A DNA stretch of 64,000 bases. Source: Saccharospirillum sp. (GTDB lineage Bacteria > Pseudomonadota > Gammaproteobacteria > Pseudomonadales > Natronospirillaceae). Below, piece after piece: positions 32,141 to 54,741 of this stretch. Location of the stretch: positions 1 through 64,000 of the forward strand of contig JAGYIL010000003.1 in the NCBI GenBank assembly GCA_018402545.1. The letters run 5' to 3'. How positions within the stretch are numbered: the first letter of the stretch is position 1; each line of letters opens with the position of its first letter. The notes beneath the pieces are model-generated. The model was given only the letters and a program-made list of their open reading frames with translations, did not search any database and had not been told where the DNA came from. The position numbers and the translations under genes were made by a program.

Positions 32141-32200
32141 GACTCGGTGGTTGAACCGAAGGTTGAGCCTAACTCGAGACATGAGTCCGTGTCGGGCACC

Positions 32201-32289
32201 GGGTTGGCCTATCAGGGGTCGGCGTGGACCCATCCATGGGGCCTAGACCGCAGCATCCTTGCTGCGGACTTCCCCTGATAGGCCAACCC
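32201..32289. repeat. Large intergenic palindrome, copy A (core on minus strand)
   Basis: Perfect 18-base arms GGGTTGGCCTATCAGGGG (32201-32218) and its complement (32272-32289) enclose 53 bases with two further hairpins: CCCATCCATGGG around 32230-32240 and CCGCAGCA-TCCT-TGCTGCGG (32248-32267). The core is the reverse complement of the core of copies B and C (AAGTCCGCAGCAAGGATG...). A possible degenerate flank motif AACTCGAGACATGAGT lies at 32171. Together with copy B it fills the miaB-ybeZ gap. Confidence 0.85.
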
Positions 32290-32377
32290 GGCACCCAACA
32301 CTTACCCTGTGGTAATTGTCATTTTCTTCGGAATACTACGTAGAGTTGTAAGATTACGCACAGTACGAGTGGCGGTT

Positions 32378-32472
32378 GCCGGTGGTGCCTCTGCGGGGGA
32401 GTCCGCAGCAGGGATGCTGCGGCCTAGGCTCCACGGACGGATTCACGCCGACCCCGCAGAGGCACCACCGGC
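32378..32472. repeat. Large intergenic palindrome, copy B
   Basis: Perfect 21-base arms (32378-32398, GCCGGTGGTGCCTCTGCGGG plus G, and 32452-32472) enclose a core beginning AGTCCGCAGCAGGGATGCTG, which contains the hairpin CCGCAGCA-GGGA-TGCTGCGG, then CCTAGG and GATTCACGCCGA. It lies in the opposite orientation to copy A, about 90 bases away. The remaining bases to ybeZ (32473-32633) show no other feature I can name. Confidence 0.85.
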
Positions 32473-32633
32473 GGCCGACACGGATTCCGGCACAAAGGTG
32501 AAATTAACGAATACAACGGTGGCTGAGTAACAATTAGTTACCACGGTAATCGACTTTTTGACATGGCAGGGATGCGGCGTATTCTTAGCCTATTCTGCTG
32601 ATTGCAGCGCAACGTGAGAGGAACCAGAACACT

Positions 32634-33641
32634 TTGACTACCCCGTCTAATCTTGAGGCTGCGACAGCAGCGTCCGATCTGCGGCAATTTGAGCTGCAAC
32701 CCGATAATCCCCAGCGACTGGCCAGCCTGTGCGGCCTGGCCAACGACAACCTCCGGCAGATTGAAGATCGCCTGGACATTCGCGTCAATAATCGTGGCAA
32801 TCGCTTCGAACTGGCCGGTGACGGTGGCAGCGTTGCAGCGGCCGAAGACATCATCAAGCGGTTGTATCGGGAGACAAAGGGTGGCAAGGACTTACTGCCC
32901 GATACGGTGAACCTCTATTTGCAGCAGTCCGAGGTCGAAACCCTGAGTGAGCAGGAAGGGGCGCAGTTGCATGAGCACAAACTCTACGTGCTGCACACGC
33001 CCAAATCCGTAGTCAAACCGCGCGGTCCCAATCAGCGGGCCTATGTGCACAGCGTGCTGACCCACGACATTAACTTTGGCGTTGGCCCGGCCGGTACCGG
33101 CAAGACCTTTCTGGCCGTCGCCTGCGCCGTGCAGGCGCTGCAGAAAGACCAGGTCAAACGCATTATTCTGGTCCGCCCTGCGGTGGAAGCGGGTGAAAAA
33201 CTGGGCTTTCTGCCCGGGGATCTTAGCCAGAAAGTCGACCCCTACCTGCGCCCGCTTTACGACGCTCTCTATGAGATGCTCGGTCTGGAAAAAGTCGATC
33301 GCCTGATTGAACGCAACGTAATTGAAGTGGCGCCTTTGGCCTACATGCGTGGTCGAACGCTGAGCAATGCGTTCATTATTCTTGACGAAAGCCAGAACAC
33401 CACCAAGGAACAGATGAAAATGTTCCTGACCCGTATTGGCTTTGGGTCAACGGCTGTCATCAACGGTGACCCGACTCAGGTCGACCTGCCACGTGGCAAT
33501 CAGTCTGGTCTCGCCCATGCCCTTAAAGTCCTCGATGGTGTCAGCGATATCAGCGTGACCCGCTTTGGTTCCAAAGACATTGTGCGGCACCCCCTGGTGC
33601 AGCGCATTGTCGATGCCTATGACGCGCACGGAGACAGCTGA
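32634..33641 (+). CDS. ybeZ: PhoH-like ATPase YbeZ
   Basis: A 335-residue P-loop ATPase of the PhoH/YbeZ family, with an N-terminal KH-like region (about 20-90) and Walker [10 protein letters not shown] near residue 147; [23 protein letters not shown] is the Walker B/sensor stretch. It interacts with YbeY in RNA metabolism. The start appears to be TTG 32634, with AGAGGA upstream; there is no ATG before the conserved part. ybeY starts 8 bases after its stop. Confidence 0.94.
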
Positions 33642-33649
33642 CCGCCGCC

Positions 33650-34171
33650 ATGAACGCTCACCCGGCTTTAGCGGCCGTCGTCGATCTGGATCTCCAGATC
33701 GCGTCCGATGCCGCAGACCTGCCCGCTTTCGATGACCTGCTGCTCTGGGTCGCCGCGGCTCTCAATGGCGAACAAGACGCCGCCAGCCTGACCATTCGCC
33801 TGGTTGATGACCCGGAAAGCCAGCAGCTCAACCATGACTACCGGGGCAAGGATGCACCTACCAATGTACTGTCGTTCCCGTTTGAACTACCACCGGGCAT
33901 AGACGACCCTGAAGTTAAGGCCCTGCTCGGCGACCTGATCATATGCGCGCCCGTGGTGACCCGCGAGGCGGCTGAACAGGGCAAGCCTGTTGCACATCAC
34001 TGGGCGCACATGGTGGTCCATGGTACCTTGCATTTATTGGGGTACGACCACATTGACCCGGCTGAAGCAGAGATCATGGAATCACTGGAGCGCCGCATTC
34101 TGGCGACGCTCGACATCCCCGACCCTTACTGGCTTGAGAACCACTTGCCGACCGGCACCCCCCCCCTATAA
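33650..34171 (+). CDS. ybeY: Endoribonuclease YbeY
   Basis: A 173-residue zinc endoribonuclease used in 16S rRNA 3'-end maturation and ribosome quality control. The metal site [11 protein letters not shown] (H-x3-H-x5-H) lies near residue 120, and [16 protein letters not shown] is the conserved strand before it. It is the middle of the ybeZ-ybeY-corC operon. Confidence 0.97.
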
Positions 34172-34216
34172 TGGGCGGACTGATCCGGGAACCATTTGCA
34201 GAGGACACGCACTAGC

Positions 34217-35086
34217 ATGAGCGACGAACGACCCACGAGTAGCAACCCCGGTAGGAAATCCTGGCTGGAACGCCTGTCGGATGCCTTCACCGGGGAGCCC
34301 AAAGATCGCGACGATTTGCTCACTATCCTGAACAGCGCTCAGGAAAACGACATTCTGGACAACGAAGCCTTCAAAATCATCGAAGGCGCCCTTAATGTCT
34401 CGGACATGCACGTCAGGGATATCATGATCCCCCGTTCCCAGGTGGTCAGCCTGGAAACCAACGACAGCATTCAGCACTGGCTGTCGCTGATCGTTGAGTC
34501 CGGACACTCCCGTTTCCCGGTGCTCGGTGAAAACTCCGACGAAGTGGTAGGGGTGCTGTTGGCCAAAGATCTGCTTGGCCTTGGCCTGCAAACAAAGTTT
34601 GATCTGGATGACATGAAAAAGCGGTTGAACACCATCATCCGCAACGTCAACTTCGTGCCGGAAAGTAAGCGCCTCAACGTCCTGCTCAAAGACTTCCGCA
34701 GCAACCGCAACCACATGGCGGTGGTGGTTGACGAATACGGGCAGACCGCGGGCCTGGTCACCATTGAAGACGTGCTCGAAGAAATTGTCGGGGAAATTGA
34801 AGACGAACACGACGACACCGTCGATGCCAACATTCGCCCCAACGGCAATGGCGGCTTTCTGGTTCAGGCACTGACCCCGATCGAAGACTTCAATGAGCAT
34901 TTCTCGACCGAACTCAGTGACGAGGAATTCGACACCATCGGTGGCATTGTCATGCATCAGTTTGGCAAGGTGCCCCAGCGTGACGAGTCCATCACTCTGG
35001 GCGAGTTGCTGATTAGGGTCGTGAATGCTGATAACCGCAGGGTTCGTGCCTTTGAGGTGAACCGACTGCAACCCGAGACCGACTGA
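34217..35086 (+). CDS. corC: CorC/HlyC-type CBS protein
   Basis: A 289-residue cytoplasmic protein with two CBS domains (about 65-190; VRDIMIPRSQV, GHSRFPVLGE, GVLLAKDLL) and a C-terminal CorC/HlyC transporter-associated domain (about 205-285). It lacks the DUF21 membrane domain, as in CorC of E. coli, linked to magnesium and cobalt tolerance. ATG 34217 has AGAGGA upstream; a TTG at 34196 is less likely. The lnt gene that normally follows is absent and fumC comes next. Confidence 0.93.
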   Translation: MSDERPTSSNPGRKSWLERLSDAFTGEPKDRDDLLTILNSAQENDILDNEAFKIIEGALNVSDMHVRDIMIPRSQVVSLETNDSIQHWLSLIVESGHSRFPVLGENSDEVVGVLLAKDLLGLGLQTKFDLDDMKKRLNTIIRNVNFVPESKRLNVLLKDFRSNRNHMAVVVDEYGQTAGLVTIEDVLEEIVGEIEDEHDDTVDANIRPNGNGGFLVQALTPIEDFNEHFSTELSDEEFDTIGGIVMHQFGKVPQRDESITLGELLIRVVNADNRRVRAFEVNRLQPETD

Positions 35087-35091
35087 TTCCA

Positions 35092-35114
35092 GCGGGTCCG
35101 TCATCCGGACCCGC
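35092..35114 (+). terminator. Stem-loop after corC
   Basis: A perfect 9-base stem GCGGGTCCG (35092-35100) and CGGACCCGC (35106-35114) with loop TCATC, 5 bases after the corC stop. The following bases are C-rich, not T-rich, so termination would be weak. Confidence 0.5.
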
Positions 35115-35203
35115 CCTCCCATCTGATTTGCCAGCCCGCCCGATTGGACATCCCGGTTCAGAGCACTAAAGTGTGTGCAAACCTGACCAGTGGAGTTGTT
35201 GCC

Positions 35204-36580
35204 ATGCGCATCGAAAAAGACAGCTTTGGCGAAATGTCCGTTCCCGACGACGTACTGTACGGCGCCCAGACCGCCCGGGCCTTGTCCAATTTCGGACTGT
35301 CCGGCGAGGTAATGCCACCTCGCTTTATCGAGGCCTGCCTTGCCATCAAGGCCGCCGCTGCGGGGGCCAACGCAGAATTGGGGATTATCGCAGACGACAA
35401 GGCAGCCGCCATTCAGAACGCCTGCCTGGAAGCCCGCAAACACAACAATGGCCACCAGTTCCCGGTCGACGTATTCCAGACCGGCTCTGGTACCAGTACC
35501 AACATGAACGTCAACGAAGTCATCGCCCACCTGGCGGCAACAGCCAGCGGCCTCGACATCAGCCCCAACGATGACGTCAATGCCAGCCAGAGCAGCAACG
35601 ACACCATTCCTGCGGCGATTCAGATCAGCACGGCTCTCGCACTGGAAGAAAGCCTGCTACCGGCCATCACCGCGCTTAAAAACAGCCTGAGCCAGCAGGG
35701 CGATGCGCACAGAGATGTGGTCAAAACCGGCCGCACCCACCTGATGGATGCAATGCCGCTGACGCTGGAGCAGGAGTTCTCGGCATGGATTGAAGCGCTG
35801 GACAGCTGCCAGCGTCGTATCAATCAGTGTCTGCCCAGACTCAAGGCCCTGCCCCTGGGCGGAACTGCCATCGGCACCGGCATCAACGCCCCTCAGGGCT
35901 TTGCCGAGCTGGCTTGCCGGCATCTGAACCTACAGATCGCCAACGATTTTTGCCCGCACAACAACGCCTTCTACGGCATCAGCACCCAGGATGTCTCGGT
36001 TGAGGCGTCGGGTTTGCTAAAAGGGCTGGCGACCAACCTAATCAAGATCAGCAACGACCTGCGCTGGATGAACAGCGGTCCGCTGGCCGGCCTGGGGGAA
36101 GTCGTGCTGCCGGCTTTACAGCCGGGTAGCAGTATCATGCCAGGGAAGGTCAATCCGGTGATTCCGGAGGCCGTGCTGATGGCCTGCTACCAGGTTATCG
36201 GACACGACACGGCCATCACGCTGGGCGCCCAGTCCGGCAATTTTCAGTTAAACGTTAGCCTGCCGCTGATCGCCCGCAACCTGCTCTACAGCATTGCGCT
36301 GCTGAGCCAAAGCTGCGAACACCTGGCGCACAAGGTCATCGATGATCTGAAGGTGAATCATGAGGCCCTGTCCGGGCCGCTGCACCGCAACCCGATTCTG
36401 GTCACCGCATTGAATCCGGTTCTGGGTTATCTGAAAGCAGCGGAGATCGCAAAAATAGCGTATGCCGATAACCGGCCCATCCTCGAGGTCGCCCTGGAAA
36501 AAACCGACCTGAGCCGGGAGGAGCTGGAATCCCTACTCGACCCGGCCCGTCTGGCACACCCATACCGGCAAACCGACTGA
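35204..36580 (+). CDS. fumC: Class II fumarate hydratase
   Basis: A 458-residue iron-free fumarase (fumarate to malate, citric acid cycle). The superfamily signature GSSIMPGKVNP lies near residue 310, preceded by the TGRTHLMDAMPLTLEQE and SQSSNDTIP motifs with the catalytic histidine region. ATG 35204 has GGAG 8 bases upstream and gives the length of the Pseudomonas FumC1 type; the longer frame from 35144 adds 20 unconserved residues. Aspartase and argininosuccinate lyase are less likely given the motif set. Converges on the exporter gene with a 4-base gap. Confidence 0.94.
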   Translation: MRIEKDSFGEMSVPDDVLYGAQTARALSNFGLSGEVMPPRFIEACLAIKAAAAGANAELGIIADDKAAAIQNACLEARKHNNGHQFPVDVFQTGSGTSTNMNVNEVIAHLAATASGLDISPNDDVNASQSSNDTIPAAIQISTALALEESLLPAITALKNSLSQQGDAHRDVVKTGRTHLMDAMPLTLEQEFSAWIEALDSCQRRINQCLPRLKALPLGGTAIGTGINAPQGFAELACRHLNLQIANDFCPHNNAFYGISTQDVSVEASGLLKGLATNLIKISNDLRWMNSGPLAGLGEVVLPALQPGSSIMPGKVNPVIPEAVLMACYQVIGHDTAITLGAQSGNFQLNVSLPLIARNLLYSIALLSQSCEHLAHKVIDDLKVNHEALSGPLHRNPILVTALNPVLGYLKAAEIAKIAYADNRPILEVALEKTDLSREELESLLDPARLAHPYRQTD

Positions 36581-36584
36581 ACGG

Positions 36585-39185
36585 TCAGTCCTCGGTGCGG
36601 TGATGCCCTTCAATGGTCCCGAAGGGCCGTGTCAGCACAATAAGACGCGGCAGCAGGGTCAGTGAACCCAGCAGAGCCACGGCCATCGCCAGGGCGGTTA
36701 GCAGCCCAAAATACAGGGTCGGGCGGAAATTCGACATCATCAGAATGGAGAAACCCAGAATGATGGTCAGGGAGGTATAAAACATGGCCTTGCCAATGGT
36801 GTTGTGGCTGCGCGACAGCGCCCGCACATAGTCACCGTCTTTGGCGAATTCACGCTTATACCGAACCAGGTAATGGATGGTGTTATCAACAGCCATCCCG
36901 ATGGTAATGCTGGCAATGGTGATGGTCATCATATCCAGCGGTATACCAAACCAGCCCATGATGCCGAGCACAAAGGTCGCCGCCAGCAGATTGGGCGCCA
37001 TTGCCAGCAAGCTGAGCTTGAAGCTTCGGAACAGAATTAGAAACATCAGCAGAATGCCCAGAAACACCACCCCCAGTGTCAGAATCTGAGAGCCAAACAG
37101 GCTTTGCAGCATGTTGTTGTACAACACCATCATGCCGGTCAGCTGGATCTGGCCCGGCTCAAAGCCCAGCTCTTCAACGGCATCCCGTTCGATCCGCTCC
37201 AGAAAGGCGTTGCGCTTCAGGCCATCCATTGAATCCAGAATGCGAACGTTCAGCCGCGCCTGGTTATGCTCCACCGAGACATAGGGATCGATTACCAGAT
37301 CCCGAAATTCGCTGGGGATAACGGTATACAGCAACGCCAGCTGGACGTTCGTCAGCGCCTCATCGTCGTTGAAGCCTTCGGCGATTTCGATCATGGTAGC
37401 CAGCGACAGGACCTTGCCGGTTTCTGGCTGTTCATCGAGATAACGGTGCATCGCCTTGATGCGTGCCACTTTTGACTGGGTGTACCAGTATTTCTCAGGG
37501 TCATCTTCAGCCCCAAAGTCGTCGCTGAAACTGCCTACCGACGCACTGCCACTGCCAAAGCCCTCGTCGACGAATCCATCGTCTTCGGCGAAACCTTCAT
37601 TTACAAACCCTTCGTCAACAAAGCCTTCCGGTTCCTCCTCAGCTGGTTGGCTGGCAGAACCCCGCTCCGGTACGTCCTCGAAATTAATCAGCACTTCCAG
37701 GGGCGTCGTGCCACCCAGACGCTCGTCGATGACCGTCATGCCCTGGTAGATGTCTGTACTCTGATCGAAATAATCGATGAAGCTGTTTTCGACGACCAGT
37801 CGGGTAATACCGATCACGGTGAAGGCAGCCAACGCCAGGCTGGTTACCAGTACCGCATTGCCGGATTTGAGCGTAATGCGGGCCAGCAAGCGAGTGGTTT
37901 TGCCACCGGATGATTTTTCTGCGGTACGCTGATCTTTTCCCGCCAGCAGCAGCAGCGCCGGGAACAGCGAAAACGTCACCAGAAACGCACAAGCAATGCC
38001 CAGAGACATCATCCAGCCAAAATTGATCACCGGGCGAATGCCACTGAACAACAGTGACATAAAGGCTACCCCCGTGGTCAGGGCCATATAGAGGCAGGGC
38101 ACGGCGATGCGCTTGACCGCCGTCATTACCAGTTGGGCCTGGTCCCAGTCGTGATGTTTGCGCAGCAGTTCGCGGTAGCGCACGATCAGGTGAATCGACA
38201 TCGACAGGGTGAGAATCAGCAACAGGGAGATGAAGTTGCTGGAAATGACCGTCACCGGCCACCGCCCCAACCCCAAAATACCCAGCATGGTTACTACTAC
38301 GGCACCACAGCACAACAGCGGCATGATTACCCAGCGCGGTTGCCTGAATATCACCGTTAAAGTAGCGATCAGCAGGAACAGCACCCCCAGCCCGAAGGTG
38401 ATCAGGTCATTGCGCACGAAGGTGATGATGTCATCGGCGATCATGGGCACGCCGCCCAGAAACAGCTGGGCATCGTCCTGATGCGCTGCCATTACCTCAC
38501 GCACCGAAGCAATGGTTTCGTGCACCATGGTCGCACGGCGATTGCTCTGCTCCTTCAGCATGACCTCAACACGCTCAAGGTCGGCCGCAATAGACTCCGG
38601 CACCTCGCCCGTACCCGCCTGTTCGGTCAGAGATGCCTGCAAGGTCAGCAATTGCTCCCGGGTCGTATCAAGAGGGAGATTGATTTGCAGAGCAGTGGTG
38701 TTCTCTTCCAGATTGAGCAGCAGGTTAACGTAGAGGGGGCTGTTGGCGAGCTCGGTGCGCGCCATCTCGACGTCCGTCTCCGGGTCTTCCAGCGTCTTGA
38801 TGTTCGAGACCAGTTCGGTCATGGGTACCGGCGGGTTCGACAGCAGAGGCACGTCCAGCACCGTCAGGACTGAATCAACACCCCGGATGTCGCGCAGATC
38901 GTCACGCAGGGCTTCCAACCCAGCCAGAGAGGTATCGGAAAACAGGGAGGTTGGCGGGGTGTAGGTCATCACCAGGAAATCCTGAGCCCCGTAGCGCTCA
39001 GCAGTTTCCCGGAACAGGGCCAGATCCTCGTCATCTTCCAGCAGCAAAGCGTCGGCGGACGCATCCAGGCTAAAGTGCCGCGCCTGAGTCGCGAGCAAAC
39101 TGATCACCAGCACCAGGCCGATGAGTACCCAAAGGGTATACCCAGTCAAAATACGCTGATAAAGCGCCCACATACGCTGGCCCAT
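36585..39185 (-). CDS. RND/MMPL-type exporter
   Basis: An 866-residue inner-membrane protein with the duplicated layout of RND permeases: TM1 at about residues 14-34, a large periplasmic loop, five helices (about 240-400), a second loop, then six more helices at the C-terminus. Closest to the MMPL/predicted-exporter group rather than drug pumps; substrates in the family are lipids, hopanoids or hydrophobic compounds. The second periplasmic loop holds an acidic tandem stretch (encoded at about 37555-37632) in which GFVDE/GFVNE/GFAEDD units repeat five times. ATG 39185 has GGGAG upstream. No membrane-fusion or outer-membrane partner gene is adjacent. Confidence 0.85.
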   Translation of the reverse strand: MGQRMWALYQRILTGYTLWVLIGLVLVISLLATQARHFSLDASADALLLEDDEDLALFRETAERYGAQDFLVMTYTPPTSLFSDTSLAGLEALRDDLRDIRGVDSVLTVLDVPLLSNPPVPMTELVSNIKTLEDPETDVEMARTELANSPLYVNLLLNLEENTTALQINLPLDTTREQLLTLQASLTEQAGTGEVPESIAADLERVEVMLKEQSNRRATMVHETIASVREVMAAHQDDAQLFLGGVPMIADDIITFVRNDLITFGLGVLFLLIATLTVIFRQPRWVIMPLLCCGAVVVTMLGILGLGRWPVTVISSNFISLLLILTLSMSIHLIVRYRELLRKHHDWDQAQLVMTAVKRIAVPCLYMALTTGVAFMSLLFSGIRPVINFGWMMSLGIACAFLVTFSLFPALLLLAGKDQRTAEKSSGGKTTRLLARITLKSGNAVLVTSLALAAFTVIGITRLVVENSFIDYFDQSTDIYQGMTVIDERLGGTTPLEVLINFEDVPERGSASQPAEEEPEGFVDEGFVNEGFAEDDGFVDEGFGSGSASVGSFSDDFGAEDDPEKYWYTQSKVARIKAMHRYLDEQPETGKVLSLATMIEIAEGFNDDEALTNVQLALLYTVIPSEFRDLVIDPYVSVEHNQARLNVRILDSMDGLKRNAFLERIERDAVEELGFEPGQIQLTGMMVLYNNMLQSLFGSQILTLGVVFLGILLMFLILFRSFKLSLLAMAPNLLAATFVLGIMGWFGIPLDMMTITIASITIGMAVDNTIHYLVRYKREFAKDGDYVRALSRSHNTIGKAMFYTSLTIILGFSILMMSNFRPTLYFGLLTALAMAVALLGSLTLLPRLIVLTRPFGTIEGHHRTED

Positions 39186-39239
39186 GTCAGGCTCCCTGTC
39201 GGTGATCCAAGCACATGCTCGCGGAGTGTTCAGCTGGCT

Positions 39240-39692
39240 TCAGAGCCAGCGACGCACCCGTTGACAATATGCGGTGTAAGACGGTCCGTGCCGTTCGAGC
39301 AACCGCTTTTCCTCAGGCCGGATAAAGAGTCTGTGCAAGGCAAACACAAACACCGGCAAGACCACCCAGGATGACAGCGTACCTACCCAGATGGCCAGCC
39401 CTGCGGCAATCATTAGCTGACCCAGATACATGGGGTTGCGGCTCAGCCGATACACCCCACGCTCGACCAGAGGCCCCTGAACGTTGCCAAATTCAACTGA
39501 GGCGCCCGCCCGTTGCAGCTCCCGATCCGCAATCAGATTGAGAGCTGCCCCCAGAGTAATGGGGATCAGTCCGACAAAATTCCACGGATTAGGGAACAGC
39601 AGCGTCAGTGGCTTGATAAAATGCAGTGAAAAAATGGCCAGCATGACCAGCAGACCGAGCGCCGGGGGTAGAAAAGGCGGCTTGTGAGACAT
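39240..39692 (-). CDS. Isoprenylcysteine carboxyl methyltransferase-like membrane protein
   Basis: A 150-residue integral membrane protein with about four helices. The C-terminal motif GVYRLSRNPMYLGQLMIAAGLA, with RNPMY followed by a late RPEEKRLLERHG, is the SAM-binding signature of the ICMT/PEMT superfamily. In bacteria the substrates are mostly unknown; phospholipid or small-thiol methylation are possibilities. It is 54 bases upstream of the exporter on the same strand. Confidence 0.8.
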   Translation of the reverse strand: MSHKPPFLPPALGLLVMLAIFSLHFIKPLTLLFPNPWNFVGLIPITLGAALNLIADRELQRAGASVEFGNVQGPLVERGVYRLSRNPMYLGQLMIAAGLAIWVGTLSSWVVLPVFVFALHRLFIRPEEKRLLERHGPSYTAYCQRVRRWL

Positions 39693-39815
39693 GAAACACC
39701 ACTTATAACAGATTCAAAGCCCATAACAGGCACGGTTTGGCATTCGGATCAGCCTGACCAGAACGTGCCTCAGTGTAAGGGCCCCTGGCCCCGGTTACAG
39801 CCGTCGAAAGTCACC

Positions 39816-40433: not shown

Positions 40434-40518
40434 ATATCATCTCCCTGCACCGTAAACACTTGCCCGATCGCCATGCTCTTATCAGCCCTACAGGGCGCCA
40501 CTTCAGCAGTGACGATGG

Positions 40519-41652: not shown

Positions 41653-41720
41653 ACTTGCTTCCTTCTTCAATCTGCCAAACACCCGACCCCGATCCGGTTG
41701 CGCCCGGGTGCCCATCCCGC

Positions 41721-42953
<1,233 letters not shown>

Positions 42954-43066: not shown

Positions 43067-43178
43067 GAACTCAAGCGTCGGAGCTCGGGTGGACCGTGGG
43101 GATTTGGCCCGCGCCGGATACCGGGTGTACCCGGCACCCGCCGCTGGTCATCTCAGCAAACTCCAAAACTTGAGTTCC
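43067..43178. repeat. Flank-motif inverted pair, copy C1
   Basis: GAACTCAAGCGTCGGAGCT (from 43067) is matched by an inverted ACTCCAAAACTTGAGTTC (about 43160-43177), the motif that also surrounds copy E. Between them is a GC-rich stretch with the palindrome CCGGGT-GT-ACCCGG near 43122-43135. It lies in the obgE-rpmA gap. Confidence 0.7.
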
Positions 43179-43678: not shown

Positions 43679-43690
43679 GGTTTCTCTCCG

Positions 43691-44002: not shown

Positions 44003-44198
44003 GTTACTCTCCAAAGGATAAAAACCAACCCGACCCGCAATGATTCACTACTAACCTGTGTCTAAAGGCAACGCCTACGCTGGGAGCACCCTATAACAGG
44101 GAATGAAGCAGGTCGATCAGGGCGCGCAATAATACGGATTTCGCGGCATGGAAGCAACCCCCATTCTACGCTGTGCAACGACGCCAGGCCTGCGCTTC

Positions 44199-44227
44199 TT
44201 GACACGGCCGCAGGGGCTACCTAGCAT
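44199..44227 (+). promoter_or_regulatory. Sigma-70 promoter for ispB
   Basis: Perfect TTGACA (44199-44204), 17-base spacer, TAGCAT (44222-44227), 33 bases before the ispB ATG. Confidence 0.7.
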
Positions 44228-44260
44228 CGCCCGCTGGCGTTTATCACAAAGACCCCCCGC

Positions 44261-45229: not shown

Positions 45230-45256
45230 ATCCTGGAGTCCGCGGGAGTGGTGCGG

Positions 45257-45922: not shown

Positions 45923-45990
45923 GGCCAGACTTCCTTCCATAAGAGCAGCCAGGGTTAACAGACACCCCGCACCAGCTCAGTTTGCACCAA

Positions 45991-47199
45991 TTACGGTTCA
46001 TTGAACGGCAACTGTTCACGCGTTGACTCAATCAGCTCGCGCAGTTGTCGCTCGTTCAGTGCCGCACCATTAGACAGCCAGGGCTCCCAGAATTCTCGCG
46101 CCGGCATTAAACGGTCATCGGTCGCGGGCCGAAAATCTTTACGACCCTGTGCATCAATGCGGCGTAAATACCCCAGCATTTCCAGACCGGCGACGTTGGC
46201 AACCATGTCTTCGGCACTGAAACCGGAGCTGCGTGTTTCCGCATCCGACCACTCCTTATAGGTGGCCAGCTCCAGCGCTGCATCGGGGTTCATCTGTGTG
46301 CCCAGCCACATTGCCAGGGTGTAGTGACGCGCCAGATCATAGCGCCCGTGCAGGGTCAGTCGCTGGCCGGAGAGCCGGGGCAGATCCACACCCGGCCTCA
46401 TGCCCGATACCGAGCCGAGCGTTGCATAAGACAGGGCACCAAAAACAGCACTGCCATCCTGATTAAAGTCGAGATTCGGGCGCTGGGCCAGGGCAATCAG
46501 TATGTCACGCAGCGGAATCCGCTGACGGCCATCGGCGGCAAAAAAATCGCGCACCCACTCGACCTCCTCTACCAGGCGCTCGCGTTGCCCCGATCCCGAC
46601 CAGAACGGCGCGAAATCATTCAGCCAGCCGGTCAGCTCCGGATCGGTCCATTCGGTTGAGAACGTCAGGCTGCCATTACCCATGTCCACGACCGGGTTTA
46701 AGGTTTGCCATAGCTGTTCGGCATCGCGCACAGCAGGCAGCTCAGCCAGGCGTGCGTTGATCCGGCGCAGAATCCACTCCGGAACGGCGACCCCGCTTAT
46801 CCAGAAACGGCGCAACTCAAATGGCTTGTCAGGCGACCAGGTCAGTTGCAGCGGTAAAAAACGGTCCAGCCATCGGGTTGGGTACCAGGCCTCCAGAGTC
46901 AGGATGTCTGGCGTAATGCGTGCCCGGAACTGGGTGTGGGTTAAGGCGGGCTGAGTAGAGGCCAGTAAAATGGCAAGTTTCTGGACGTCATCCTGCTGCA
47001 CCCTTAGCGAAACTGCCTGACCCGGCTCCAGTCGCGCAGGATGGTAGTCATCCAGCCACTGCCGGTATTTGCTCAGATCGGAAAAGGGAATGATCGTACG
47101 GGGCGCGCTGTCACCGGGAACCGTAATCCACCAAGCCAACAGAATCAGCGTCAGTACTGCGGTAAACACCCCCACGGCAAGGCGCCGCAACCACCTCAC
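45991..47199 (-). CDS. Unrecognised membrane-anchored protein
   Basis: A 402-residue protein I do not recognise. It has a basic N-terminus (MRWLRRLAVG) and one hydrophobic segment (about 8-27) that reads as a signal anchor, so the rest is probably periplasmic. The body is tryptophan-rich (for example YPTRWLDRFLP, WIPSG-like turns absent) with no cysteine and no catalytic motif I can name. GTG 47199 overlaps the stop of the RmlD-like gene as GTGA, so the two are coupled. The PilZ gene follows 68 bases on. A role in the envelope is inference from topology. Confidence 0.8.
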   Translation of the reverse strand: MRWLRRLAVGVFTAVLTLILLAWWITVPGDSAPRTIIPFSDLSKYRQWLDDYHPARLEPGQAVSLRVQQDDVQKLAILLASTQPALTHTQFRARITPDILTLEAWYPTRWLDRFLPLQLTWSPDKPFELRRFWISGVAVPEWILRRINARLAELPAVRDAEQLWQTLNPVVDMGNGSLTFSTEWTDPELTGWLNDFAPFWSGSGQRERLVEEVEWVRDFFAADGRQRIPLRDILIALAQRPNLDFNQDGSAVFGALSYATLGSVSGMRPGVDLPRLSGQRLTLHGRYDLARHYTLAMWLGTQMNPDAALELATYKEWSDAETRSSGFSAEDMVANVAGLEMLGYLRRIDAQGRKDFRPATDDRLMPAREFWEPWLSNGAALNERQLRELIESTREQLPFNEP

Positions 47200-48110
47200 G
47201 AAGGCACCCCGGCGCCAGACGACTCGGGCGGCGGCTCGAAACAGAGCTTCAGGGCATCCTGAACACCGCGACGCCAGGGCAATTGCTTGATACCGAAGGT
47301 AGCAAGTATCTTGCGTGTACTCAGCTCAAGGTTCTGCGGACGCTGACGCTCATCCTGGCCGGGCGGGTAGATAGCCTCGACCGACTCTACCTCGACATCA
47401 ATACAGGACTTGGCCGCCTTGACGATGGCTTCGGCAAAAATATGCCAGTGGGTCACATCACTCCCGGCATAGTGGTAGGTTCCCCACAGGGGTGGATCCA
47501 CGTCGCAGTCAACCTGTTCGAGCATGGCGATAACCACCCGCGCCAGGTCAGCCGCTGCCGTCGGGCACCCGCGTTGGGTATCCAGTACCCGGATCACATC
47601 CTGTTCCTGGGCTTGCCGTATGATGTGGGTCAGAAAATTGGGCCGGTCGGCGCCAAACACCCAGGAAGACCGCAGAATCAGGTGGCGTTCGCACTGCTCG
47701 CGCACGGCTAGCTCCGCCTGTAAAAAAGCGCGGCCAGCTACGGTAACCGGCTGTACCACATCCTGTTCGGAGTAGGCGGTGGTCTTGTTACCGTCAAACA
47801 CCTGTTCGCTCGATACTTGAAGTAGCGCAATACCGGCTTCCTGGCAGGCAGCAGCCAGTACCGCTACCCCGGTATCAATCTGGTGCGGCCAGCACGAATC
47901 CACACAGGCCTCAGGTTCCAGATCATTATGAACATAGGCATTGATGACATAGTCGGGGCGGTGCTGCCTCAGCAGCGCCGTCACGGCCTCCCGGTCATTC
48001 AGATTCAGTTCTGAATCGGGGACCAACACAGCCTCGATACTCCGGGTCGACACCAGCCGGCCCAGCGCCCGCCCCAACTGCCCTTCGGCGTCAGTAACCA
48101 GTAATTTCAC
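47196..48110 (-). CDS. RmlD-like sugar-nucleotide reductase/SDR protein
   Basis: A 304-residue extended short-chain dehydrogenase of the RmlD type. The N-terminal nucleotide loop is VTDAEGQLGRAL in place of the usual GANGQLG, DYVINAYVHNDLE replaces the NAAA(Y)T motif, and QVSSEQVFDG plus ILRSSWVFGA are family landmarks. The catalytic YxxxK is not obvious (AYSEQD at that place), so enzyme activity is uncertain. GTG 48110 lies 12 bases after the ssb stop. No rmlA/B/C genes are present. Confidence 0.78.
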   Translation of the reverse strand: MKLLVTDAEGQLGRALGRLVSTRSIEAVLVPDSELNLNDREAVTALLRQHRPDYVINAYVHNDLEPEACVDSCWPHQIDTGVAVLAAACQEAGIALLQVSSEQVFDGNKTTAYSEQDVVQPVTVAGRAFLQAELAVREQCERHLILRSSWVFGADRPNFLTHIIRQAQEQDVIRVLDTQRGCPTAAADLARVVIAMLEQVDCDVDPPLWGTYHYAGSDVTHWHIFAEAIVKAAKSCIDVEVESVEAIYPPGQDERQRPQNLELSTRKILATFGIKQLPWRRGVQDALKLCFEPPPESSGAGVPS

Positions 48111-48122
48111 CCGACAATGGCC

Positions 48123-48680
48123 TTAAAACGGGATGTCGTCGTCGAAATCGTCGAAATTATTGGCTGGCTGGTGACCAGTCTGGCTCGGCGCCGGTGCCTG
48201 AGATGGCTTACCGCCAAAACCACCCTGCGGCTGGCCGCCGCCAAAGCCACCGGTGTTCTGTGGTGCATTGCCCTGATAACCCGCGTTCTGACCGCCCTGG
48301 CTTGCGAAACCGCCGCCCTGCGAGGCACCCGGGTTGTCACCGCGTCCGCCAATAAATTGCATTTCGTTGGCGACGATTTCGGTGCTGTATTTCTCCACAC
48401 CGTTCTGGTCCTGCCATTTGCGGGTTTGCAGCCGGCCTTCAATGTAGACCTGTGAGCCCTTGCGCAAATAAGTCGCCGCGTTTTCAGCCATGCGCCCAAA
48501 AATCACGATACGGTGCCATTCAGTGCTATCGGACCGGTTGCCCTGCTCGTCGCGCGGGCCCAGTTCGTTGGTGGCTACGTTCAGATTGACCACCTGAGTG
48601 CCCGAGGCGGTCGCCCGCACGTCCGGGTCCTGCCCAAGGCGCCCCAGGATAATGACTTTGTTAACTGTTCCGCGTGCCAT
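48123..48680 (-). CDS. ssb: Single-stranded DNA-binding protein
   Basis: A 185-residue SSB with an N-terminal OB fold (MARGTVNKVIILGRLGQDPD), a glycine/glutamine-rich linker (about 115-170) and the acidic partner-binding tip DDDIPF. It recruits repair proteins to single-stranded DNA. No LexA box lies directly upstream; the gap before it holds tandem hairpins. The order uvrA, MFS, ssb is conserved. Confidence 0.98.
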   Translation of the reverse strand: MARGTVNKVIILGRLGQDPDVRATASGTQVVNLNVATNELGPRDEQGNRSDSTEWHRIVIFGRMAENAATYLRKGSQVYIEGRLQTRKWQDQNGVEKYSTEIVANEMQFIGGRGDNPGASQGGGFASQGGQNAGYQGNAPQNTGGFGGGQPQGGFGGKPSQAPAPSQTGHQPANNFDDFDDDIPF

Positions 48681-48737
48681 AAAGTTGCATCCTATTCTGT
48701 AAAAGTCGTCTCAGGGTATACCACCGTGCACCTGCAC

Positions 48738-48974
48738 CCGGAACATGGATGTTCCGGCGAAATCCATGACGGCCACGTCATTGATTTCGGGAGGAAAGCG
48801 AAAATCACACTTTTTGCTTTCCGTGTTTTGAAAAAGGCAGGAAGCCTTTTTCAAAGCCTGCCAGTGTCCCCCGTGTCAGTCGTTTTTATCTTTGAACTCA
48901 CGTTTCGCAGTACGCCTGAGTCTGCATTGCCAGGATCCCGCACCAGATGGCAGCGAACACCGAAACTTGAGTTT
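48738..48974. repeat. Tandem hairpins with flank-motif pair, copy F
   Basis: Four stem-loops follow one another: 48738-48757 (perfect CCGGAACATGGATGTTCCGG), 48758-48789 (13-base stem, one mismatch, loop GGCCAC), 48793-48822 (12-base stem) and 48827-48855 (perfect TTTGAAAAAGGC arms, loop AGGAA). Then AACTCACGTTTCG (48895-48907) and CGAAACTTGAGTT (48961-48973) form the flank-motif pair. They occupy the 337-base ssb-MFS gap; I see nothing else there. Confidence 0.78.
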
Positions 48975-49017
48975 GAACCGGTCATACGATAAATCAAGGG
49001 GCTCCCAGCCCGCCAGG

Positions 49018-50241
49018 CTAAGAGCGTAGCGACAGATCCGGGTCATCGCCGCTTGCCTGGCGGTTGGCTGATGGGCCAGTCACACTCCGGTCAAGCACCC
49101 ATAGTAACACCATCCACACCAGCATCACTGCGATGCCGATCATAGCAATGCCAATCATTCCCCACTGCTGATACGCCCAGCCGCCACAGAGCCCGCCGAG
49201 CGCTGCGCCCAGAAACTGGCCGGTTGAAAACACGCCCATGGCAGTACCCCGTGCATGCTCGGGTGCGCGACGGCTGATCAGAGACGGCAGACTGGCCTCT
49301 ACAAAGTTAAAGCCTACGAAAAACAACCAAACCAGTCCGATACTCAGCCAGGCCACTGAACTCAGCCCCAAACCCGCCATCGCCAGGGTAATAAAGGCAC
49401 CGGCAAGGATCAAAAACACCCGGTGAGCCTTGCGGCGCTCGGCCAGAGCGATCATCGGCACCATGCCCAGGAAGGACAATACCATCACCGGAGCATAGAC
49501 CCAGCCTAGCTGATCGCCCAGGATACCCTGTTGCACCAGCACGACCGGCAACCCGACAAACATCATGGTCATGGTCAGGTGCAGTACAAACACACCGATA
49601 TTCAAGGGCACCAATTGCCGGTCACGGACCACCCGCCCCAGCTGACTACCCTGCCAGCGGCGTTCTTCATGCACTTTCGCCGGCGGCGGGGTTGGCAGCC
49701 AGTAGACAATCACCAGACCAGACAACGCCATTAGCGACGTTGCCCAGAACACGCCAGACAGGCCAAAAGCACTGGCGATGACCGGGCCGATAATCACCGC
49801 CAACACAAAGGAGCCACCAATAATGGCACCAACAATGGCCATCGCCTTGGTGCGCTCTTCCGGACGGGTATAGTCAGCCAGCAGCGCCAGAATAACACTG
49901 GCGATGGCCCCCGCCCCCTGCAGAGCACGGCCGAAAACCACACCCAACACATGCTCCGACAATGCAGCAATCACCGACCCGATAATAAAAATCAATAACC
50001 CGGCGGCAATCACCGGCTTACGGCCAAACCGATCCGACAGCATCCCCAGAGGAATCTGCAGCACCGCCTGGGTAATGCCATAGATTCCCAGTGCAATACC
50101 CAAAAGCACCGTCGTGGCACCCGTCAAGGACTGGCCATACAGGGTCAGAATAGGCAGCACCATAAACAACCCGAGCATGCGCGAGGCATACAACAGCGCC
50201 AAGCCTGTCAGCGCCTTTTTTTCCAAACTATTAAAAGCCAT
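49018..50241 (-). CDS. MFS transporter
   Basis: A 407-residue, 12-helix major facilitator. The A-motif GMLSDRFGRKPVI lies after TM2, and FGRALQGAGAIASVILALLADY is the TM4 B-like motif of drug:H+ antiporters. It belongs to the transporter type conserved between ssb and uvrA in pseudomonads; substrate unknown. ATG 50241 has a weak ribosome site. Divergent from uvrA across copy D. Confidence 0.9.
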   Translation of the reverse strand: MAFNSLEKKALTGLALLYASRMLGLFMVLPILTLYGQSLTGATTVLLGIALGIYGITQAVLQIPLGMLSDRFGRKPVIAAGLLIFIIGSVIAALSEHVLGVVFGRALQGAGAIASVILALLADYTRPEERTKAMAIVGAIIGGSFVLAVIIGPVIASAFGLSGVFWATSLMALSGLVIVYWLPTPPPAKVHEERRWQGSQLGRVVRDRQLVPLNIGVFVLHLTMTMMFVGLPVVLVQQGILGDQLGWVYAPVMVLSFLGMVPMIALAERRKAHRVFLILAGAFITLAMAGLGLSSVAWLSIGLVWLFFVGFNFVEASLPSLISRRAPEHARGTAMGVFSTGQFLGAALGGLCGGWAYQQWGMIGIAMIGIAVMLVWMVLLWVLDRSVTGPSANRQASGDDPDLSLRS

Positions 50242-50427
50242 ATAGTGGCAATGTCCGTAATGACCCAGGTTCAGTGCCCAGGCTATTCAATTGAGTCTAT
50301 TAACGAGTGTCGATACAAAGTCGCGCATGGTACCAGAAATGATTCCGGTTAGGCTTGCCACAGGCGGGTATTTTCCACGTCGGTTGCACTGTATTCGCGG
50401 GTTACTTAGTCGACACAGCCTGAATCC

Positions 50428-50541
50428 GTGCCCGACATCGGGTACGCCCCTGACGGGACGCTGCAAGTACATCCATGTAAGCTCGGCGGTCCCCATCCAT
50501 GGGGACCGACGCCCGCCAGGGGCGCACCCGATGCCAGGCAC
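50428..50541. repeat. Large intergenic palindrome, copy D (second core type)
   Basis: Imperfect 30-base arms (50428-50457 and 50512-50541) enclose a different core with two hairpins on the same octamer: TACATCCATGTA (50468-50479) and GGTCCCCATCCATGGGGACC (50488-50507). A single flank motif TGAAACTTGGGTTC lies at 50587-50600, touching the uvrA LexA box. It fills the MFS-uvrA gap together with 150 bases before it in which I see nothing. Confidence 0.85.
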
Positions 50542-50599
50542 TAACCTGAGTCGGCAACCTTAGCTATAAAGCGATTCAGGATATTCTGAAACTTGGGTT

Positions 50600-50615
50600 C
50601 TGTACGTTTATACAG
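50600..50615. promoter_or_regulatory. LexA (SOS) box upstream of uvrA
   Basis: CTGTACGTTTATACAG fits the gammaproteobacterial consensus CTG-N10-CAG with an AT-rich centre, 77 bases before the uvrA ATG. It predicts SOS induction of uvrA. Confidence 0.9.
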
Positions 50616-50692
50616 TAAACTGGACCGCTTGCGTGTCTGCCCAGGCTGGCAGCCGCAACCATCATTGCATCAGCCGGAAAAAAGAGGAAGGC

Positions 50693-53542
50693 ATGGACAA
50701 GATTTCCGTCCAGGGGGCTCGCACCCATAACCTGAAAAACATCGATGTGGACATCCCACGCGATAAACTCGTCGTTATTACCGGCCTGTCCGGGTCGGGC
50801 AAATCGTCCCTGGCTTTCGATACTCTTTATGCCGAAGGCCAGCGCCGCTACGTCGAATCATTGTCGACTTACGCCCGCCAGTTCCTGTCAATGATGGAAA
50901 AGCCCGATGTCGATCACATCGAAGGGCTGTCTCCGGCCATTTCCATTGAGCAGAAGACCACCAGCCATAACCCGCGCTCTACCGTGGGGACAACCACAGA
51001 AATCTATGATTACCTGCGCCTGCTATACGCACGCGTCGGCGAACCGCGCTGCCCCGAGCACGATGAACCCCTGGAAGCCCAGACCATCAGCCAGATGGTC
51101 GACCAGGTACTGGCGTTACCCGAAGGCAGCAAGCTGATGATGCTGGCCCCGATTATTGATGATCGCAAGGGCGAACACCTTCACGTGTTCAACGAATTGC
51201 GGTCTCAGGGGTTTGTACGGGTGCGAGTCGATGGCACCGTCATGGATCTCGATGAAGTGCCGGAGCTTGATAAAAAGCGCAAACACAGCATCGAAGCTGT
51301 GGTTGACCGCTTTAAAGTGCGGGACGACCTGAAGCTGCGCCTGGCCGAGTCCTTCGAGACCTGCCTGACGCTCTCGGGTGGTATTGTGAAAATGGTCTAC
51401 ATGGATGGCGACGGGCCAGACATGCTGTTTTCCAACCGCTTTGCCTGCCCGGTCTGCGGCTACTCAATCACCGAACTTGAACCGCGCATGTTCTCGTTCA
51501 ACAACCCGGCCGGTGCCTGTGAGCAGTGCGATGGTCTGGGTATGAAGCAGTATTTCGACGGTGGCAAGGTGGTGCGTGATGCTGCCTTGTCGCTGGCCGA
51601 AGGGGCGATTCCGGGCTGGGACCGGCGCTCGGTCTACTATTTCAGTCAGTTGCAGTCACTGGGCGAGCATTACGGTGTCGACATCGACCAGCCATTCAAA
51701 GACCTGCCGAAACGCTTTCAGCGCTATGTACTGGACGGCACCGGTAAAACCGAGATCGAATTTTCCTACGTTAACAGCCGCGGCGCCACTTACTCGCGCA
51801 GCCACGCCTTTGAAGGCGTCATGCCCAATATGGAACGCCGCTACCGGGAAACCGACAGCCAGATGGTGCGCGAGGAACTGTCGAAGTTCCTCACAGAGCA
51901 AGACTGCCCGGGTTGTCATGGCAGCCGTCTGAAACAAAGTGCGCGCCACGTGTTCGTTAAAGGCATCAACCTGCCTGAAGTCACCCACATGGCCATTGGT
52001 GACTCCCTCACCTACTTCAAAGAACTCACGCTGACCGGATCACGCGCCCAGATCGCCGACAAGATTCTGCGCGAGATTGTTCAGCGCATGACCTTTCTGG
52101 TTAATGTCGGGCTCGACTACCTGACCCTCGACCGCAGTGCCGATACGCTCTCTGGTGGTGAAACCCAGCGTATTCGCCTCGCCAGCCAGATTGGCGCCGG
52201 CCTGGTTGGCGTGATGTACATTCTGGATGAACCCTCCATCGGCCTGCACCAGCGCGACAATGACCGCCTGCTGGAAACCCTGACCAACCTGCGCGATATG
52301 GGCAACACAGTGCTGGTGGTCGAGCACGATGAAGACGCTATTCGCGCCGCCGATTTTGTACTCGACATCGGCCCCGGCGCCGGCATTCACGGCGGGCACA
52401 TTGTCGCCTCGGGCACACCGGCCGACATCATGGCCAACCCGGACTCCCTGACCGGCCAGTATCTGAGTGGCAAGCAGCGCATTGAAGTTCCGAAAAAGCT
52501 GACGCCGATGGATCCGAAGAAGCTATTGACCATCAGCGGTGCGCGCGGCAACAACCTCAACGATGTGACGCTGAACCTGCCAGTCGGGCTCTTTACCTGC
52601 GTCACCGGGGTTTCCGGTTCCGGCAAATCAACACTGATCAACCAGACCCTGCACCCGCTGGCCGCTACCGTATTGAACAAGGCCACCACTCTGACACCGG
52701 CAGCGCACGACAGCATCAGCGGCCTGGAACATTTCGACAAGGCGGTCGACATCGACCAGAGCCCTATTGGCCGCACCCCACGTTCAAACCCCGCGACTTA
52801 TACCGGCATCTTTACCGCCATCCGCGAGTTGTTTGCTGGCACCCAGGAAGCGCGTTCGCGCGGTTACCAGCCGGGCCGGTTCAGCTTTAACGTCAAGGGT
52901 GGTCGCTGCGAAGCCTGCCAGGGCGATGGCCTGATCAAGGTGGAAATGCACTTCCTGGCCGACATTTACGTGCCCTGCGATGTCTGCACCGGCAAACGCT
53001 ACAATCGGGAAACGCTCGATGTCCGCTACAAGGGCAAGAACATTCACGAGGTGCTGGAGATGACCATCGAAGAGGGCCGGGCCTTCTTCGACGCCATTCC
53101 AGCCCTGTCGCGCAAGCTGCAAACACTGATCGATGTCGGCCTGACCTACGTCAAACTGGGGCAAAGCGCGACCACACTCTCAGGCGGTGAAGCCCAGCGC
53201 GTCAAGCTGGCGCGCGAACTGTCGAAGCGCGACACCGGCAATACACTGTACATTCTCGATGAACCGACCACCGGCCTGCACTTTCACGACATCAAGCAAC
53301 TGCTCGCGGTACTGCACCGGCTGCGTGACCACGGCAACACCGTCGTGGTGATCGAACACAACCTGGATGTCATTAAAACAGCTGACTGGATCATCGACTT
53401 GGGGCCGGAGGGTGGTAGCCGGGGCGGTTACATCATCGCCGAAGGCACGCCAAAAGAAGTCGCCAACAACAAGGCGTCAGCGACCGGCAAATACCTGAAG
53501 CCGCTATTAAAAGCTGGCGCCAAAGCCCTGGAAACAGCCTAG
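50693..53542 (+). CDS. uvrA: Excinuclease ABC subunit A
   Basis: A 949-residue damage-recognition ATPase of nucleotide excision repair. Two ABC modules: Walker [10 protein letters not shown] near residue 32 and GVSGSGKST near 640, signatures [10 protein letters not shown] and [10 protein letters not shown], with zinc modules CPVCGYSI...CEQCDGLG and CEACQGDG...[12 protein letters not shown] 50693 has GAGGAAGG directly upstream; the longer frame from 50633 adds 20 unconserved residues. LexA-controlled. Confidence 0.98.
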
Positions 53543-53550
53543 AGACGGTG

Positions 53551-53580
53551 CCAAAGAGCCCCGTTAGCGGGGTTCTTTGG
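53551..53580. terminator. Hairpin shared by uvrA and mazG, containing the mazG stop codon
   Basis: A 13-base stem with one G-T pair (53551-53563 and 53568-53580) and loop TTAG. The mazG stop codon (TAA on the minus strand, 53566-53564) lies in the loop. T-rich bases are inside the arm (TTCTTT), not after it. Confidence 0.7.
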
Positions 53581-54385
53581 CCTTGGCCTGGTCCCAGAAT
53601 GCATCGAGGCTGTCGAGACTGTGCGCGGACCAGTCGCCACCGCCAGCCTGTACCTGTTGCTCAACCTGACTGAACCTGGCTTCGAATTTGCGGGCGGCTC
53701 TGCGTAACGCCTGTTCCGGGTCAACATCCAGATGGCGGGACAAATTGGCGATTACGAATAACAGATCGCCGAGCTCTTCTTCAGTATGGTCTGCATCACC
53801 CAAAGCAGCCGCTTCACGCAATTCAGCCAGTTCTTCATCAACCTTATCGAATACGCCACTAACATCGGGCCAGTCGAACCCAACCCGGGCAGCCCGCTTC
53901 TGCAGCTTGCGGGCTCGCAGCAAACCAGGCAATGAACGTGGCACATCGTCCAGCAGTGATACAGCTCGACCGCTATTTTGTTTCTCAACGTCTTTCAACT
54001 GATCCCACTGACCATTTACCGTACCGGCATCGGTTTGATGGTTGGGGTCAATCTGGCTTTCAAGCGTGCCGGCAGGAAAGACATGGGGATGGCGACTGAT
54101 CAGTTTGGCAACCAGATCGTGAATCACATCATCGAGATCAAAGCGCTGTTCTTCAGCGGCGATCTGGGCATAAAACACCACCTGAAACACCAGGTCACCC
54201 AGTTCCTCCCGAAGGTGTGCGTAGTCGCCCCGCTCGATAGTGTCGATCACCTCATACACCTCTTCCAGTGTATGGGGCACAATCGACTCGTAAGTCTGCT
54301 CCAAGTCCCACGGGCATCCTGTGCCCGGCGTGCGCAACCGCTGCATCAGCGTTTTAAGATCGTGATAATCGTATCGTTGAGTCAA
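53564..54385 (-). CDS. mazG: Nucleoside triphosphate pyrophosphohydrolase MazG
   Basis: A 273-residue all-alpha NTP pyrophosphatase with two tandem MazG domains (about 10-115 and 140-260). The E-x-x-E...E-x-x-D metal motifs are LEEVYEVIDTIERGD with EELGDLVFQVVF, and again DEELAELREA with EELGDLLFVIANL. It degrades aberrant NTPs and affects ppGpp-dependent survival. It follows relA in the conserved pair but is separated from it by the 303-base copy E. Confidence 0.96.
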   Translation of the reverse strand: MTQRYDYHDLKTLMQRLRTPGTGCPWDLEQTYESIVPHTLEEVYEVIDTIERGDYAHLREELGDLVFQVVFYAQIAAEEQRFDLDDVIHDLVAKLISRHPHVFPAGTLESQIDPNHQTDAGTVNGQWDQLKDVEKQNSGRAVSLLDDVPRSLPGLLRARKLQKRAARVGFDWPDVSGVFDKVDEELAELREAAALGDADHTEEELGDLLFVIANLSRHLDVDPEQALRRAARKFEARFSQVEQQVQAGGGDWSAHSLDSLDAFWDQAKAKEPR

Positions 54386-54438
54386 GCCTAAATGCCTTCT
54401 ATTTTCGCCATTTCATATTGCTGGTACTGGGAGTTAAA

Positions 54439-54741
54439 AACTCAAGTTTCAGAGTTCGCTCAGAAGACTAGCACCGGGTGCCGGGTATGCCCCTGTGGGG
54501 GAGTCCGCAGCAGGGACTAAAACGCCAGGAGCGTTTTAGCATGAGCGCAGCGAGCCCGAAGGGTGAATCCCATGGAGGGGATTCATATCCTGCGGCCTAG
54601 GCCCGAGACCGGTGTGCCGGACCAGACGTACCGCCATTGATGGATTAACGCCGAGCGAGTGTCGCACCACCCAAGAGGCATACCCGGTATCCGGTGCGAG
54701 CCACTAACTCTCAGGTACCCCCGAACTCTGAAACTTGAGTT
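54439..54741. repeat. Composite palindrome with nested insertion, copy E
   Basis: Outermost is a perfect 20-base inverted pair (54439-54458, AACTCAAGTTTCAGAGTTCG, and 54722-54741). Inside lie imperfect 24-base arms (54471-54494 and 54674-54697). The core GTCCGCAGCAGGGA...CTGCGGCCTAGG is interrupted by 73 bases (54517-54589) that carry two hairpins of their own: CTAAAACGC-CAGGA-GCGTTTTAG (54517-54539) and GAATCCC-ATGGAG-GGGATTC (54565-54584). A second extra segment follows CCTAGG. It fills the mazG-relA gap. Confidence 0.85.

Follow-up and report, generated by a model that had tools for sequence, protein, structure and literature searches.

A cloverleaf-folding intergenic repeat of Saccharospirillum and other Gammaproteobacteria, with probable selection on one of its strands

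Several gaps between genes in the 64,000-nucleotide stretch of Saccharospirillum sp. analysed here (contig JAGYIL010000003.1, positions 1 to 64,000; the window) hold large palindromes, which raises the question whether these are copies of one repeat, which of the two strands matters and what the folded structure might be for.

Cloverleaf elements in the window

The initial annotation had described related elements in at least five gaps of the window. A covariance model built from 31 copies (model R1) recovered copies A, B, C2, D and E as one cloverleaf-folding family (Table 1); at E<=0.01 it had no match before 32 kb, just as that annotation had stated. For the ssb-MFS gap, also listed among the gaps with related elements, a cloverleaf was not confirmed: the model finds none there, and the gap contains only a remnant with terminal inverted repeats. 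The obgE-rpmA gap does carry a copy (C2), together with a second element without the cloverleaf core. This second element has probably lost its core, because the sister species G001 carries a 201-bp element with a core at the same place.

Table 1 Cloverleaf copies and terminal-inverted-repeat elements in the window. The strand given for cloverleaf copies is the one with GGA in the hairpin loops; bits are model R1 scores; energies and z-scores refer to this strand, with the opposite strand in brackets.
Feature	Position	Strand	Bits	Fold energy (kcal/mol)	z	Remarks
Copy A	32186..32303	-	136.9	-89.1 (-78.7)	-9.8 (-9.0)	long arms
Copy A, hairpin 1	32229-32240
Copy A, hairpin 2	32248-32267
Copy B	32367..32484	+	119.7	-89.8 (-80.1)	-9.1 (-7.4)
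109-bp terminal-inverted-repeat element	43068..43176					obgE-rpmA gap; no cloverleaf core
Copy C2	43214..43346	+	66.3		-5.8	obgE-rpmA gap; extra hairpin beside junction
79-bp terminal-inverted-repeat remnant	48895..48973					ssb-MFS gap; no cloverleaf
Copy D	50425..50543	-	78.2		-9.4
Copy E, complete 303-bp unit	54439..54741	+			-8.6	extra hairpin modules in both apical hairpins
Copy E, cloverleaf	54469-54700	+	48.4
Copy E, left terminal inverted repeat	54439..54458	+
Copy E, right terminal inverted repeat	54722..54741	-				20/20 bases complementary to left repeat

Copies A and B form an inverted doublet. When the strand with GGA in its loops (the GGA strand; its complement is the TCC strand) was folded, none of 200 shuffled sequences folded equally well for A, B, C2 or D, and none of 100 for E. 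The opposite strand of A and B folds well too, but less so. The drawn form of hairpin 1 is absent from the minimum-energy structures of B and C2. The arms pair within each copy, as described previously; within the genome, however, they are not unrelated between copies but can be aligned, and their differences are mostly compensating. A feature missing from the earlier description is the outer terminal inverted repeats of complete copies.

Two further structures were noticed in the window. At 54513-54592, the tip of hairpin 2 of copy E holds a two-hairpin module with GGA in its loops on the same strand, and similar inserts occur at loci L040, L045 and L058. Besides that, the ssb-MFS gap has at 48738-48860 several hairpins which carry GGA in the loop or close to it (GGAACATGGATGTTCC is one of them) and are partly conserved in G001; they are possibly a CsrA-binding leader or sRNA and not a copy of the repeat.

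Copy number, anatomy and distribution

The genome comprises 4.25 Mb in 11 contigs. A blastn search with copy A hit at least 43 places (40 of 242 candidates scored), and model R1 gave at least 150 matches. Applied to 41 own-genome sources (the window and stretches picked around known copies, 561 kb in total), the same model yielded 260 two-strand matches, the best 150 of which were aligned and resolved into 133 distinct copies; copy E scores below the alignment cut and is not among them. As 29 of the 133 copies lie outside the 150 matches listed for the genome, the cloverleaf repeat has at least 179 copies. The possibility that a genome-wide search would reveal no further copies, which the initial annotation had named as fatal to its claim, is thereby refuted. 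Among the 150 matches listed, only 3 of the 99 C1 copies fall in a 0.6-Mb stretch at about 1.8-2.4 Mb, compared with up to 17 per 0.2 Mb elsewhere.

Read on the GGA strand, an element consists of an arm, hairpin 2, a linker with GAG or TAG, hairpin 1, a 5-base bulge (TTYAC), GGC or GCC, and the second arm. Compensating changes were found in 26 of the 45 predicted pairs (31 copies); 28 pairs lie in the arms. The terminal inverted repeats of complete units read AACTCAAGTTTCGGAGTTCG; 93 sites match at <=2 mismatches over the first 18 bases, and a reversed control gave 0. In the fetched own-genome stretches, 15 of 24 complete units measure 187-192 bp, while losses or additional hairpin modules give the remaining ones lengths between 79 and 303 bp. 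Doublets (starts within 320 bp) have a fixed order, with the TCC strand first and then the GGA strand in 20/20, read either way. Among 54 sources taken from other genomes, 11 contain inverted neighbours arranged likewise and none has the reverse arrangement; a few tandem pairs also occur among these sources. An array of six tandem copies in one direction, about 227 bp apart, was seen in G447 (C1:94411-95646). The tag is mostly AGTC in this genome where many elements of other genera have CGTC, and the core of copy D is nearer to this other-genus form (CGTC, GAGC, GCGTC).

The repeat was present in all six genomes sampled from the genus (5 to at least 96 hits each) and, by model R1, in 17 of 38 relatives in all. 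A 28-base core pattern occurred in 54 contig stretches, all labelled gammaproteobacterial or just Proteobacteria, with carriers including Arenimonas, Alishewanella, Rheinheimera, Reinekea, Natronospirillum, Amnimonas, Oleispira, Sedimenticola and Steroidobacteraceae. A second model, R2, whose 75 rows include two reverse-strand hits of window copies, matched 41 of the 229 genomes sampled from the class, including this one, and 14 of 200 sampled from the phylum; all 14 belong to this class, and the 186 others may include further members of it. Copies within a lineage have further flanking sequence in common. Between genera, the arms show no recognisable similarity, yet pair with themselves, so that plain sequence searches find the repeat poorly.

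No match was obtained in phages and plasmids (blastn, window 32160-32500) or in viral contigs (one exact pattern). Searching the window against the 4227 Rfam families gave 0 matches at gathering score; a relaxed search of 32150-32520 returned 10 weak hits, none credible (best E 0.033). A literature search that included the hairpin letters, and was limited largely to the main texts of non-subscription papers, retrieved no description of this repeat, and a paper on REPs (PMC12306157) contained none of the terms looked for. We conclude that the repeat is genuine and widespread and, judged by Rfam and the literature search, undescribed as such.

Regarding placement, a codon-usage gene caller trained on own-genome stretches put 126 of the 133 copies in intergenic regions: 34 convergent, 13 divergent, 36 sense and 43 antisense. 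For comparison, all 225 gaps >=100 bp (element gaps included) comprise 39 convergent, 55 divergent and 131 tandem ones. The 93 single copies divide into 22 sense, 28 antisense, 26 convergent and 11 divergent, with 6 overlapping a called gene; of the 76 that face a stop codon, 73 are at most 100 bp away from it. The repeat follows genes and is indifferent to their direction. A cruder orientation count for 44 elements of other genomes, noisy in GC-rich DNA, showed no bias either way.

Wobble pairs and the folding strand

A G·U pair on one strand of a palindrome corresponds to an A·C mismatch on the other, so the two counts should balance if neither strand mattered. In the arms of the 133 own copies (3707 pair cells), the GGA strand has 147 G·U pairs and only 16 A·C mismatches, along with 107 other mismatches. 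The same direction was found in 26 organisms among the other genomes (73 G·U vs 17 A·C, 59 other mismatches), a count that excludes loci L140, L152 and L160 of the 54 as well as elements too near a locus end. Taken per organism, 18 of 26 favour G·U and one A·C, with 7 ties (one-sided sign test, p 3.8e-5), and a version with wider arms gave 78 vs 17 over 53 elements. Another 16 genomes, in which the best copies are almost free of mismatches, gave 10 G·U vs 3 A·C (6 for, 2 against, 8 ties; 6 of 22 loci skipped as truncated), which is not significant alone. The fold energies of the two strands of A and B point in the same direction (Table 1). These comparative counts indicate that evolution very probably keeps one strand, the GGA strand, foldable, and a double-stranded cruciform alone does not explain such a bias. 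Counting wobble pairs strand by strand may in this way reveal the working strand of a palindromic repeat, an approach also applicable to REPs.

In the apical hairpins, the bias is reversed. Hairpin 1 of the own copies has 59 G·U pairs on the TCC strand vs 1 A·C, of which 55 lie at the apical pair, the edge of the ANGGAN loop, which need not pair; hairpin 2 is reversed as well (6 vs 4).

Strand-biased mutation as a source of the bias is unsupported in the arms, where private changes are even (C>T 66, G>A 64); in unpaired columns they number 8 and 28, respectively, uncorrected for composition. Read-through from neighbouring genes was ruled out: sense and antisense copies are equally biased (52:5 and 46:5, G·U:A·C), and a transcript from the upstream gene can therefore not be the selected RNA. 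This leaves two possibilities: the element is the source of its own RNA, or folding of the strand is important during copying. Among own copies, mismatches common to at least one of eight near neighbours comprise 92 G·U, 0 A·C and 32 others, compared with 36, 12 and 47 for private single changes, as if selection were strongest while copies spread.

The sister species G001, with alignments about 82-86% identical and 63 copies compared, provided sites for following individual elements. Matching returned 28 candidate shared sites, 27 of them verified by both flanks. Over their 752 pair cells, 567 are unchanged and 101 changed on both sides and are still Watson-Crick, against about 10 compensated pairs expected by chance according to our own arithmetic. 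Single changes led to G·U in 39 cells, to A·C in 5 and to other mismatches in 26, the rest being mixed. The partner at the same site was among the three nearest of the 133 copies by arm sequence in 12 of 27 cases and not in the other 15, so that replacement, refilling or conversion between copies is possible. At the 12 near-neighbour sites alone, 24 pairs were compensated, with 18 changes to G·U, 3 to A·C and 9 to other mismatches. The earlier proposal that structure is maintained is thus borne out by compensating changes at shared sites, and sharpened by the strong bias towards one strand.

Within the window, comparison of gaps with G001 gave a mixed picture. The site of the ssb-MFS remnant is empty there, the one clear empty site, and copy E is missing, with one end-like remnant retained in a 39-bp gap. 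The sites of C2 and D are occupied in G001: C2 is present with altered arms, and D has kept its arms around a degenerate core.

Possible roles of the GGA strand and relation to mobile elements

Both loops read C-A-N-GGA-N-G on the GGA strand, with both N variable and the loop closed mostly by C-G. Of the 133 own elements, 115 have exactly two loop GGA, 9 a single one and 9 three or four; among the 70 diverse elements, 56 have two, 3 one and 11 three, and many of these 70 were found by a pattern fixing hairpin 1 so that only hairpin 2 was free. Exactly two such words are present in 98 of the 203 elements examined, and 87 of these 98 have their two GGA 20 or 21 nt apart. A single csrA is present in the genome; its product retains L4 and R44, residues that we take to be functionally relevant. 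The loop word with its context corresponds to the published CsrA/Rsm site, CANGGANG in a hairpin loop (PMC6849547), and is hence a predicted site. According to the parts of the literature covered, CANGGANG hexaloops are high-affinity targets of CsrA/RsmE with an 18-nt optimum (PMC4894983), and CsrA dimers bridge sites 10-63 nt apart with an optimum >18 nt (PMC7652899). GGA in hairpin loops is likewise a feature of CsrB/RsmZ-type sRNAs and of the flaA leader of Campylobacter jejuni, the latter described with two hexaloops 21 nt apart (PMC4894983, as far as covered), compared with about 20 nt in the cloverleaf repeat. Those are, however, single genes or leaders, whereas the present predicted sites sit in a dispersed repeat with a long basal stem.

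One possible explanation, which we put forward tentatively and regard as plausible though short of probable, is a MITE-like structured element whose GGA strand would act as a two-site CsrA-docking RNA. Its working form would be the folded GGA strand, with a long basal stem, a junction and two hairpins showing ANGGAN, made as RNA from copies in either direction; this RNA would dock one CsrA/Rsm dimer across both loops. Copies might jointly serve as a sink for CsrA or individually as local anchors for it, and in this genus they may spread, or may once have spread, as units with terminal inverted repeats, presumably the sites of a transposase. If CsrA docks, the repeat load would be a direct input to Csr regulation. 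That such dispersed, mobile-like RNAs exist class-wide, offering more than 100 two-site targets per genome and helping to set the free CsrA level, is a more doubtful extension. Gene orientation lends the CsrA explanation no support (22 sense and 28 antisense single copies), and this indifference to direction is its main gap. Promoter-like scores upstream of the GGA strand showed no clear excess (64 vs 55 of 133 for the other strand). Co-occurrence with CsrA gave no support either (37 of 41 element genomes vs 157 of 188 others), in a comparison without power; G233, 98% complete and with 9 repeat matches, is not among the genomes listed with CsrA.

Alternatively, the GGA strand could be a single-stranded DNA substrate, cut and joined by a hairpin-reading enzyme as RAYT does with REPs, in which case the loop word would serve as a contact for this enzyme and resemble CsrA sites by coincidence. 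We consider this somewhat unlikely, but it accounts for a bias independent of gene direction, for the contrast between related and private mismatches and for the fixed order of doublets, and REPs are indeed handled as single strands in the text covered (PMC3733652). The earlier suggestion that copies spread as structured DNA could hold in this form, as G·T could be better tolerated than A·C also in a GGA strand that folds as single-stranded DNA. However, compensation is also seen at the 12 near-neighbour shared sites, and the repeats next to the sole Y1_Tnp gene above cut-off are of another kind. If correct, this explanation would point to an undescribed hairpin-handling enzyme.

The tight placement behind stop codons and the enrichment in convergent over divergent gaps would also fit a REP-like structure at mRNA 3' ends, shielding or ending the transcript of the preceding gene without CsrA, and REPs are placed alike after genes (PMC3733652, in the part covered). 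Such a function needs no conserved loop word, and since the GGA strand is not preferred in mRNA, it leaves the one-strand bias unexplained; we regard it as improbable. Least probable is an ordinary selfish MITE with neither strand functional, whose palindrome persists because template switching or gene conversion acts between its arms or between copies. The terminal inverted repeats, the size and the absence of coding capacity would fit, and the nearest-copy ranks at shared sites allow conversion, but nothing in such processes would favour one strand over the other, and the even private changes in the arms contain no such preference; the strand bias thus already disfavours it.

As in MITEs, the units are non-coding, measure 70-300 bp between terminal inverted repeats and are in some copies absent from the sister genome; unlike in MITEs, no transposase was found here. 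This combination of ends and size occurs in G000, G001 and G004 only, and G002, G003 and G005 have no terminal end at <=1 mismatch. As G003 nevertheless holds 93 cloverleaf matches, the cloverleaf is not tied to the terminal-repeat unit. No target-site duplication was consistent across the units examined. An autonomous element with the same ends was not seen among the 93 ends at <=2 mismatches, a search that would miss more divergent ends. Only two convergent end pairs lie 420-5000 bp apart, each being two separate units; the pair at 2.9 kb encloses an arginyl-tRNA-synthetase-like gene (product assigned by eye).

GTAG REPs with their RAYT (REPtrons) share several traits with the cloverleaf repeat: they are intergenic, palindromic, arranged in inverted doublets after stop codons, and G·T pairs in their stems have been noted. 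They are, however, units of 20-40 bp with a GTAG tag, whereas the present repeat has about 118 bp, two hairpins and no such tag. A GTAG-type REP was therefore ruled out, since the repeat has no GTAG tag, is not a single short hairpin and does not flank the RAYT of this genome. A REP-associated transposase, which the initial annotation had proposed to look for, does exist as the one Y1_Tnp hit, but the 3.2 kb around it hold their own GTAG-type repeats. This RAYT-like gene at L031 (C1:1869862-1873080), among several copies of the different repeat, looks like an ordinary REPtron.

The statement that no named family resembles these elements stands for Rfam and the literature searched, with one reservation, which concerns the gammaproteobacterial host Halothiobacillus neapolitanus. 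Nearest in print, within the text covered, is one sentence of a 2013 paper on CGTC-1 REP dimers inside 41-bp palindromes of H. neapolitanus (PMC3733652). Compared by description, both have two hairpins in a longer palindrome, and the CGTC before the first hairpin and ttcacg after the second also occur in many cloverleaf elements; these palindromes may be of the same design. The CGTC-1 dimers are described from one species and have 8-bp stems beginning with AT, unmatched by hairpins 1 and 2, and the text covered reports no loop word or CsrA link (PMC3733652). In elements of other genera, CGTC precedes hairpin 2 in many, not all, cases, and the stems do not begin with AT.

As a last observation, the flanks outside the terminal repeats are complementary over positions 1-8 in 168 of 400 cases, compared with about 123 after shuffling (50 units), as if the units sat in the middle of short palindromes.
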